A program made the translations under genes and the position numbers. Below are positions 62,487 to 64,000 of a stretch of DNA of 64,000 bases, in pieces. Numbering within the stretch: the first letter of the stretch is position 1; each line of letters opens with the position of its first letter. Origin of the DNA: Henriciella sp. (GTDB lineage Bacteria; Pseudomonadota; Alphaproteobacteria; Caulobacterales; Hyphomonadaceae); assembly GCA_013214545.1 (NCBI GenBank), contig JABSQB010000006.1:62001-126000 (forward strand). The letters are read 5' to 3'. The notes under the pieces are model-generated. The model was given only the letters and a program-made list of their open reading frames with translations. It was not told the origin of the DNA and searched no databases.

Positions 62487-63503
62487 ATGACCAAAGTACT
62501 CGTCACCGGCGCGACCGGCTTTATCGCATCCCACACAATTCTTGCGCTCGTGAACAAGGGCTATGAGGTACGGGGCACCGCCCGTTCGGCGAGCAAGGCT
62601 GAGAAGCTCAACGCGACGCTCAGCGCCTATGCTGGCAAACCGGTTGAGATTGAATTGGTGAGTGCAGACCTGACCAGTGATGAGGGCTGGGATGCGGCGA
62701 TGGACGGCGTCACCTATTTGCAGCATCTGGCCTCTCCGATCCCCAATAACCTGCCCAGGGATCCGAATGATCTGATCATCCCTGCACGCGAGGGCGCATT
62801 GAGAGCGCTGCGCGCGGCCAAAGCCGCAGGTGTGAAGCGGGCCGTGATGACCTCTTCCTTTGCTTCGATTGCTTATGGCTGGGGCGACAGCCGTCCGGAC
62901 GTGCTGGATGAGAGCCATTGGTCGAACCCCGACAATCTAAAGGACAATACGGCCTATACCCGTTCCAAAGTGATCGCTGAAAAAGCGGCCTGGGACTATA
63001 TCGAAGGCGACGGCAAAGGCCTGGAGTTGGCGGTCATCAATCCAGTTGCCGTGCTTGGACCCGCGATGAGTGGGGACGTATCCGCCTCGCTCGAGCTGGT
63101 GACCCAGCCAATGGAGAACAAGGTCCCGGCTTTCCCGAAGCTCACATTTGGCATCGTTGATGTGCGCGACGTTGCATTGGCGCATGTCGCTGCAATGGAA
63201 AAACCCGAAGCAGCCGGGGAGCGTTTCATTCTTGGTGACAAAGTGCTCAGCTTCACCGAGATCGGAGCTATCCTGCGCGAGGCCTATCCCGATCGCAAGC
63301 TGCCAAAAGGCGAGCTTCCCAACTGGCTGGTGCGAATGCTGACCGTCGTCAATCCGACGCTGAAGCAGATCGTTCCTGAACTTGGTAAGCATCGTTCGTT
63401 CAACAATGAAAAGTCGCAGCGCGTGCTTGGAATCGATTATATCCCAGCCAAAGACGCCATTCTCGCCAGCACGAATTCGCTGATCGATTTGGGCGAGCTT
63501 TAA
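62487..63503 (+). CDS. Aldehyde reductase-like extended SDR (NAD-dependent epimerase/dehydratase fold)
   Basis: 338 aa. The Rossmann motif is VLVTGATGFIASHTILALVN with RGTARSASKAEKL. The active site is MTSSFASIAYGWGD with AYTRSKVIAE (YxxxK). The IVDVRDVALAHVAAM motif and DKVLSFTEIGAILRE match the dihydroflavonol/cinnamoyl-CoA reductase group, whose bacterial members reduce aldehydes with NADPH. Perfect CGGAGG site before ATG 62487. cysS leader region follows. Confidence 0.9.
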   Translation: MTKVLVTGATGFIASHTILALVNKGYEVRGTARSASKAEKLNATLSAYAGKPVEIELVSADLTSDEGWDAAMDGVTYLQHLASPIPNNLPRDPNDLIIPAREGALRALRAAKAAGVKRAVMTSSFASIAYGWGDSRPDVLDESHWSNPDNLKDNTAYTRSKVIAEKAAWDYIEGDGKGLELAVINPVAVLGPAMSGDVSASLELVTQPMENKVPAFPKLTFGIVDVRDVALAHVAAMEKPEAAGERFILGDKVLSFTEIGAILREAYPDRKLPKGELPNWLVRMLTVVNPTLKQIVPELGKHRSFNNEKSQRVLGIDYIPAKDAILASTNSLIDLGEL

Positions 63504-63564
63504 CCGACCATTGCCAAATTGTATTTAGAAGCCTAAGGCAATGTCAGTTCTTGAGGAGTCGGCG

Positions 63565-63606
63565 ATGCCTCTGCGCGTCATCTGTTGCGTCTGTATCTGC
63601 GGCTAA
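63565..63606 (+). CDS. Cys-rich leader peptide upstream of cysS
   Basis: Encodes MPLRVICCVCICG, then TAA. Four Cys codons in 13, all in the second half. GAGGAG (63553-63558) lies 6 bases before ATG, a much better site than chance predicts. It is too short for ordinary gene calls. It ends 60 bases before the cysteinyl-tRNA synthetase start. A peptide rich in the amino acid that the following enzyme charges is the signature of attenuation leaders (as for trp, his, leu). Its Cys codons can pair with the cysS ribosome binding site. Confidence 0.8.
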   Translation: MPLRVICCVCICG

Positions 63607-63656
63607 GGCCAGCCTGCCTTAGCCAGCCTTCGCGTTGACCCTTTTTCAAATACAGA
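63590..63656 (+). promoter_or_regulatory. Putative attenuator of cysS (mutually exclusive hairpins)
   Basis: (a) GGCTAAGGC (63601-63609) pairs with GCCTTAGCC (63616-63624), loop CAGCCT, 9 bp; it starts in the last leader codon. (b) CGTCTGTAT (63588-63596, Cys codons) can pair with ATACAGATG (63650-63658), which overlaps the cysS Shine-Dalgarno region GATGAG (63655-63660), including one G-U pair. (c) CTAAGGC also occurs at 63533-63539 and could pair with GCCTTAG of stem (a). A ribosome stalled on Cys codons would break (b), exposing cysS. Mechanism inferred, not measured. Confidence 0.55.
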
Positions 63657-63666
63657 TGAGCCTGAA

Positions 63667-64000
63667 ATGTCTATCCGCCTTTACGATTCCATGGCCCGCG
63701 AAAAGCGCGCCTTCGAGCCCCAAGACCCGAACCGCGTGACCATGTATGTCTGTGGGCCAACGGTTTATAACCGGGCCCATATCGGCAATTTCCGCCCCGT
63801 TATCGTTTTCGACACGCTGTTCCGCTTGCTGCGGTCTGCCTATGGCGACGATGCCGTGATCTATGCCCGCAATTTCACCGACATTGACGACAAAATCATC
63901 ACAGCGAGCCAGGAAACCGGCGAGTCGATCGAAGCGATCACTAAGAAATATGCGGAGATCTATTCTGAAGACGCTGCGGCGGTGAACGCTCTGCAGCCGA
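63667..64000 (+). CDS. cysS: Cysteinyl-tRNA synthetase, 5' part
   Basis: First 111 codons; the gene runs off the right edge. [20 protein letters not shown], the zinc/HIGH region [19 protein letters not shown] (HIGN), [10 protein letters not shown] and [17 protein letters not shown] are diagnostic. It charges tRNA-Cys. ATG 63667 is preceded by a weak GATGAG site that can pair with leader Cys codons. Upstream lies a Cys-rich leader peptide. Confidence 0.97.

Follow-up and report, generated by a model that had tools for sequence, protein, structure and literature searches.

Does a very small, cysteine-rich open reading frame (ORF) placed directly ahead of the cysteinyl-tRNA synthetase gene (cysS) sense cysteine, and at which step might it control cysS? 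This question is raised by the end of the window, by which we mean the whole 64,000-nt stretch of Henriciella sp. DNA that was analyzed.

A short cysteine-rich ORF and a putative promoter ahead of cysS

The leader ORF (MPLRVICCVCICG; positions 63565-63606, + strand, like all features described here) comprises 13 codons, from an ATG at 63565 to a TAA stop at 63604-63606, and is supported by both the sequence and its conservation. A Shine-Dalgarno sequence, GAGGAG (63553-63558), is visible in the sequence with a 6-nt spacer to the ATG. The ATG of cysS, encoding cysteine--tRNA ligase, is located at 63667, 60 nt past the leader stop; the gene (63667-64000) continues beyond the window end, has 461 aa in the genome and was identified by TIGR00435 (495.7 bits; cut-off, 340). 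Because the preceding same-strand ORF terminates at 63503, the leader is intergenic. The short Cys ORF with a good ribosome binding site that the first-pass annotation had placed here is thus present as claimed. Four of its 13 codons are Cys codons (positions 63583, 63586, 63592 and 63598), the tandem pair being codons 7-8, versus 1.1% of codons in window ORFs of at least 250 codons. Among 100 micro-ORFs of 6-25 codons led by a Shine-Dalgarno sequence on both strands of the whole window, three have at least four Cys codons, the leader being one of them. When the window's own genome was scanned by pattern for Cys-rich stretches, 38 matches appeared, versus 17 in a control. Judged from its sequence, position and conservation, this tiny ORF is very probably a cysteine-sensing leader.

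A putative promoter was recognized just upstream (63511-63538), with the -35 element TTGCCA (63511-63516), a 16-nt spacer and the -10 element CTAAGG (63533-63538). The pattern TTGCCA-N16-CTAAG[GT], with a variable spacer sequence, occurs in 8/8 of the window (L003) and its close relatives L004-L010, hereafter the eight sequences, from which L011, L013 and L014 of the same sub-clade were left out; L011 and L013 carry a similar promoter-like pair, and the pattern gave no match in L014. Transcription would start near 63545, about 20 nt ahead of the leader ORF. CTAAGGC at 63533-63539 had been read at first pass as a competitor for one arm of the hairpin at the leader stop. The copy exists, but the competitor role was rejected: it stands a fixed 16 nt after TTGCCA, behind a variable spacer, as fits a -10 element, and L008 has CTAAGT for CTAAGG, yet the 3' arm of its hairpin is unaltered. 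CTAAGGC is probably the promoter -10, and since it behaves as the -10 of a promoter pair, it is probably not transcribed.

Distribution of the leader among relatives

The genus sample contained 29 genomes, all with cysS, and the family sample 101 genomes, 99 of them with cysS. The upstream regions read amounted to 97 from 96 genomes, consisting of 30 genus loci, which include one second cysS copy (G014), and 67 further family loci; the family genomes G030, G052 and G070 were left out (cysS at a contig edge). Micro-ORFs of 6-25 codons within the last 170 nt, with an ATG or GTG start, no Shine-Dalgarno sequence required and at least three Cys including CC, were found in 50/97 regions, compared with 1 in antisense and a mean of 0.9 (maximum 4) in shuffles; a Cys-codon leader before cysS, as first proposed, is therefore conserved in relatives. 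The other 47/97 loci have no qualifying ORF, and for genera g3, g9 and g10 and some members of the window's own genus, no CC-containing ORF is listed. The second cysS copy of G014 (L032), 54% identical, in the same assembly and perhaps due to contamination or transfer, likewise has no Cys-rich leader listed.

In the window and its seven close relatives, the 13-codon length is kept (MPLRVICCVCICG, MHKHVICCVCIRG, MPMRVICCICICG and similar), and the Shine-Dalgarno sequence of the relatives is AAGGAG or GAGGAG; the L014 leader is one codon shorter, and alignment of the closest sequences leaves gaps of 1-2 nt in the 3' part. Across the leaders the peptides vary, and Cys stays near the end (VICCVCICG, ESCCCMIG, RSLCCRIV, RCCCCR, PKGCCC). 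In the sister genus g4, 35 of the 39 loci that were read have a listed leader, many ending in CCC, CCCC or CCCCR with a differing first half. In 35/35 of these loci, a -10-like element, searched with patterns composed after inspection of the sequences, is followed 7-11 nt after its end by the leader ATG, and no clear Shine-Dalgarno sequence is visible before the g4 leaders in their sequences; therefore, the polycysteine leaders of g4 (L113-L144, L158-L163) may be translated from leaderless mRNA, that is, possibly without a Shine-Dalgarno sequence. In the same g4 loci, GCCATTAGGGCTG or near variants are strongly conserved after the leader stop, and L159 has a stop codon within the leader, ahead of the last Cys codons.

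These distributions bear on two simpler explanations. A chance ORF without function is hardly credible: short ORFs are common, and about half of the family loci are without such an ORF, but only 7 of 5000 dinucleotide shuffles of 63504-63666 yield a Shine-Dalgarno-led micro-ORF with at least four Cys, the ORF is conserved in seven close relatives, and other forms occur in a sister genus. The second explanation is that the ORF just feeds ribosomes to cysS or shields the mRNA, by coupling or reinitiation, with no cysteine sensing. Leader genes can reportedly increase downstream translation (PMC4833913), but we consider this very improbable here, because the leader stop lies 58-86 nt from cysS in 51 leaders, far for reinitiation, and because coupling leaves unexplained why Cys, which accounts for 1.1% of residues in the window's long ORFs, reaches 28.6% over those 51 leaders. 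The set of 51 omits L154, L159 (because of its internal stop), L011 (whose leader contains a run of N) and L027 (which has no ATG or GTG start near its Cys codons).

A covariance model of the element matched 9/101 family genomes at E <= 2e-7, always directly upstream of cysS, 8 of the 9 having served to build it; L013 and L014 match it weakly. Four of the weaker matches (best E 2.8e-4, in G089) were inspected (L280-L283) and taken as chance. In a class sample of 250 genomes, 246 of them with cysS, 100 upstream regions were taken, of which 14 have a micro-ORF with at least three Cys (shuffle mean 2.4, maximum 5) and 9 have one with CC (shuffle mean 1.0, maximum 3). The class-wide set was not used as evidence, because six short Cys ORFs (L200, L201, L215, L233, L238 and L264, not all within the 14) seem to overlap the end of the upstream gene, out of frame; this gene presumably resembles gltX.

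Possible pairing with the cysS start region and the probable output

The 9-bp hairpin reported at first pass, beginning in the last codon of the leader, is present (63601-63624), and its 5' arm contains the leader stop codon. Across the eight sequences it is paired in 100% of alignment cells, with one-sided changes only. The other reported element, a 9-bp pairing of 63588-63596 with 63650-63658 (one G-U), is also present in the sequence. However, leader and cysS can pair in two registers, both of which use the translation start region of cysS (ATACAGATGAGC, 63650-63661) as their 3' arm, within which ACARATGAG is conserved in 8/8 sequences. In register a, 63575-63585, which includes the first Cys codon, pairs with 63652-63661 (-13.1 kcal/mol); register b is the pairing reported earlier (-11.2 kcal/mol). 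The leader holds a repeat, CATCTGT / CGTCTGT, either copy of which is able to pair with ACAGATG.

The RNAalifold consensus of the eight sequences joined 63575-63586 to the cysS start region and kept the stop-codon hairpin. Register a pairs in 96.6% of cells, with one two-sided change common to L005 and L008, and register b in 83.3%, its single two-sided change falling in L010, a sequence in which register a is broken. Duplex energy favours register a in 8/8 sequences, the margin in L010 being merely 0.3 kcal/mol, in a comparison biased towards register a by the segments supplied (14 nt versus 10 nt for register b). Register a of the window contains 8 contiguous Watson-Crick pairs, and a run of at least 8 occurred in 24/3000 shuffles; for L003-L009 the perfect-pair run was reached by 1 to 32 of 1000 shuffles, and for L010 by 471/1000. 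When columns were shuffled, 191/500 did equally well for the register-b structure, and for the register-a structure 19/500 did so by score and cells paired and 243/500 by pairs changed on both sides. Pairing of 63575-63585 with 63652-63661 thus looks stronger in these models than the helix first named, which can form as well and is less well supported by the RNAalifold consensus, the pair counts and the duplex energies.

The proposed alignment of related cysS upstream regions bore out the conserved Cys-rich micro-ORF, and much less so the covarying stems, as covariation is thin, with one two-sided change per register among eight related sequences. The best-duplex value for the window's leader and cysS (p = 0.086 against shuffles) is weak by itself, and p < 0.05 was found in only 1/10 group-A sequences. 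Leader and start-region duplexes combined across clades often match the cognate ones in strength, and a leader-to-start-region pairing in every sub-clade, hinted at by the folds, failed against shuffles and cross-clade pairs.

With moderate confidence, we favour a cysteine-sensing leader peptide that governs cysS translation by blocking its start region. The promoter just upstream would yield an mRNA beginning about 20 nt ahead of the leader ORF. With ample Cys-tRNA, the ribosome would pass the Cys codons, terminate inside the stop-codon hairpin and depart, after which 63575-63585, or 63588-63596 in the second register, could pair with the cysS start region at 63650-63661; the stop-codon hairpin would sit nested in the loop and shorten it, and cysS translation would be low. 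When Cys-tRNA is short, the ribosome would halt on the Cys codons and block the pairing, which would open the start region and raise CysS production. Use of the promoter, the stall itself, in vivo sequestration and a response to cysteine are all inferred.

The stalled state was modelled with a 28-nt ribosome footprint on the first Cys codon, and the cost of opening the cysS start was computed; the values are modelled energies for related sequences and do not amount to independent tests. The modelled stall cheapens opening in 7/8 sequences, by a mean of 1.32 kcal/mol, compared with a mean of 0.06 kcal/mol for shuffled 3' segments under the same stall, none of 40 sets being as high as 1.32; viewed singly, each of the eight had between 1 and 21 of its 40 shuffles do equally well. 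Without a ribosome, opening the start region costs no more than in shuffles (4.99 versus 5.14 kcal/mol), and a ribosome at the stop codon gives group A a mean of 5.55 versus 5.21 free (10 members, slightly longer sequences). In a comparison made without shuffles, groups C, D, E and G shift in the same way on average, and F hardly, when the first Cys codon is covered, and E and F shift the opposite way when the last Cys codon is covered; in sub-clade B the modelled stall does not open the cysS start. The original suggestion, in which stalling of the ribosome frees the cysS start, is weakly supported by an opening that exceeds that of shuffles, but the effect is small.

The main rival keeps the same cysteine-sensing leader and places its output in transcription termination (Rho-dependent or non-canonical) before cysS, relieved by the stalled ribosome. 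In the window neither a standard scan nor a strict rule gave an intrinsic terminator, the T-run at 63642-63646 starting 17 nt past the stem, and the strict rule found a terminator in 4/51 family leaders, all of them in sub-clade E and none in group A. For this reason, control of translation fits the window's clade better. With the rule relaxed to 4 T in 8 and a gap of at most 6, the hairpins of the window, L008, L018 and L117, and L141, also count, 8/51 in all. In group A the bases that follow the hairpin are rich in C and poor in G (0.32 and 0.16); however, cysS upstream regions outside the leader list also have C over G (0.31 and 0.21, n=45). In sub-clade E, 4/6 loci (L127, L128, L131 and L136) have a terminator-like hairpin between leader and cysS, and given these hairpins the output may differ between sister clades.

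Termination is also favoured by more distant leaders. The cysS leader of Rhodobacterales has been described as a probable transcription attenuator (PMC8632094). In family f147, whose CysS is closest to Bradyrhizobium, a fold of 23 leaders showed the leader start ACGGCC joined to GGCCGT before UCUUUUCUC, enclosing the stop-codon hairpin, so that the leader-start helix abuts this U-run. The f147 leader resembles that of the window in having a helix from the leader that encloses the stop-codon hairpin, a likeness that also speaks for the preferred model, and differs at the 3' end. Its pairs are mostly invariant. For family f20, whose CysS is closest to a named Paracoccaceae MAG, the automatic fold of 27 leaders gave no consensus; L339, L345, L371, L372, L373 and L376 were removed by hand from the f147 and f20 fold alignments. 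The frequent leader start MNG in f147 (L316, L349-L377) is explicable by the ACGGCC-GGCCGT pairing just before the U-run. On balance, we regard termination as an unlikely, though serious, account of the window, and keep blocking of the cysS start region as the preferred one.

Operon content and comparison with known leaders

The f20 and f147 loci were the best-matching ones of 41 genomes searched per family, plus further f20 loci. A citramalate-synthase-like gene (cimA) was located in the downstream flank of cysS, in the same orientation, in 32/34 f20 and 26/30 f147 loci, at a median distance after the cysS match of 182 nt and 662 nt, respectively, and is often not adjacent in f147. Over loci L294-L377, mainly f20 and f147, it was found in 75/84; two fragments have TIGR00977 as their best NCBIfam match, under its full-length cut-off. 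CimA is an enzyme of the isoleucine pathway, and many cysS leaders of these loci are rich in Ile and Cys (e.g., MKSICIICCIIPC, MNGLNAICCICCEIIS). Upstream ORFs with at least one Cys, at least three Ile and at least five Cys plus Ile occur in 25/34 f20 and 24/30 f147 loci, with shuffle means of 0.03 and 0; the ORF picker for these leader lists favours Cys and Ile, which biases residue fractions upward, and the shuffle test uses a fixed criterion. In the window's family, 1/51 leader loci passes the same test.

It is conceivable that the window's leader senses isoleucine too, a trait left from the leader of an ancestral cysS-cimA operon. Consistent with this are the Ile and Cys codons of the cysS-cimA families and an Ile content of 16.8% in group A leaders, but a cimA-like match was absent in 45/45 window-family loci searched (for 44 of these the sequence extended 1000 nt or more downstream), and Ile is 0.8% in sub-clades C-G, which leaves this possibility quite improbable. 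A joint reading would be that leader codons of cysS in Alphaproteobacteria track operon content, with Cys and Ile where cimA follows and almost Cys alone where it does not, as in most of the window's family, and that one topology serves two outputs, blocking of the ribosome binding site in the window lineage and a terminator in f147; we consider the chances of this reading evenly balanced. Two observations do not fit a strict rule, namely the Ile of group A, which is without cimA, and family f87, which has cimA in 12/13 loci and leaders with 15.8% Cys versus 13.2% Ile. If codons do track operon content, the published Rhodobacterales motif may be a two-amino-acid sensor rather than a sensor of cysteine alone. 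Leaders of cysS-only and cysS-cimA loci offer a natural test of what leaders sense, as their codons vary with the genes controlled.

That motif, uORFC-8-2, has 145 unique examples, exclusively upstream of cysS in Rhodobacterales, and is described as a uORF that starts with AUG and carries a tandem pair of Cys codons, mostly at codons 14 and 15, together with two prominent stems, the first holding the Cys codons, with a U-run at the 3' end as an intrinsic terminator; ribosome stalling was proposed when Cys-tRNA is short (PMC8632094). The earlier statement that no such cysS leader had been described in alphaproteobacteria was therefore wrong, and, among titles and abstract starts of the CC-licensed PMC literature, no further description of a cysS leader was found. 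A cysteine-codon leader of cysS is already known in Rhodobacterales, and the window's version differs from it in sequence, lacking the U-run. Both are AUG-started short ORFs with tandem Cys codons directly upstream of cysS. Unlike uORFC-8-2, as described, the window's leader has its tandem Cys at codons 7-8, its stem is not directly followed by a U-run, and its local hairpin begins after the Cys codons, which can themselves pair with the cysS start. The lineage is probably another one as well: the nearest named CysS among the matches listed, in which very near records may be missing, is that of Robiginitomaculum, Maricaulales (57%), not Rhodobacterales. Rfam was searched with the window at the gathering threshold, with 63400-63760 at E up to 10 and with eight related loci, two of them named Paracoccaceae/Rhodobacteraceae, at E up to 1; none of these searches gave a match.

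In mycobacteria, a polycysteine leaderless short ORF is a cysteine-responsive attenuator, as summarized in a later paper (Canestrari et al., 2020, cited in PMC9031893). Contiguous Cys codons are common to both systems, and the g4 leader may likewise start at or near the mRNA 5' end, whereas the window's leader has a Shine-Dalgarno sequence and a probable 5' stretch of about 20 nt. The mycobacterial ORFs sit at other operons. The cysS T-box riboswitch of Firmicutes reads tRNA-Cys charging directly, without a leader peptide; the window's leader would also sense tRNA-Cys charging to control cysS, but by means of a leader peptide and with no Rfam match here. The trp, his, leu and phe attenuators combine a leader rich in the cognate amino acid, a hairpin near the leader end and an intrinsic terminator. 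Like them, the window combines a conserved ORF rich in Cys, the amino acid handled by CysS, with a hairpin near the end of that ORF; unlike them, its likely output is the cysS start region. Cys-codon control of cysS would thereby extend beyond the one order for which a report was found, with translation start, rather than a terminator, as its likely output.
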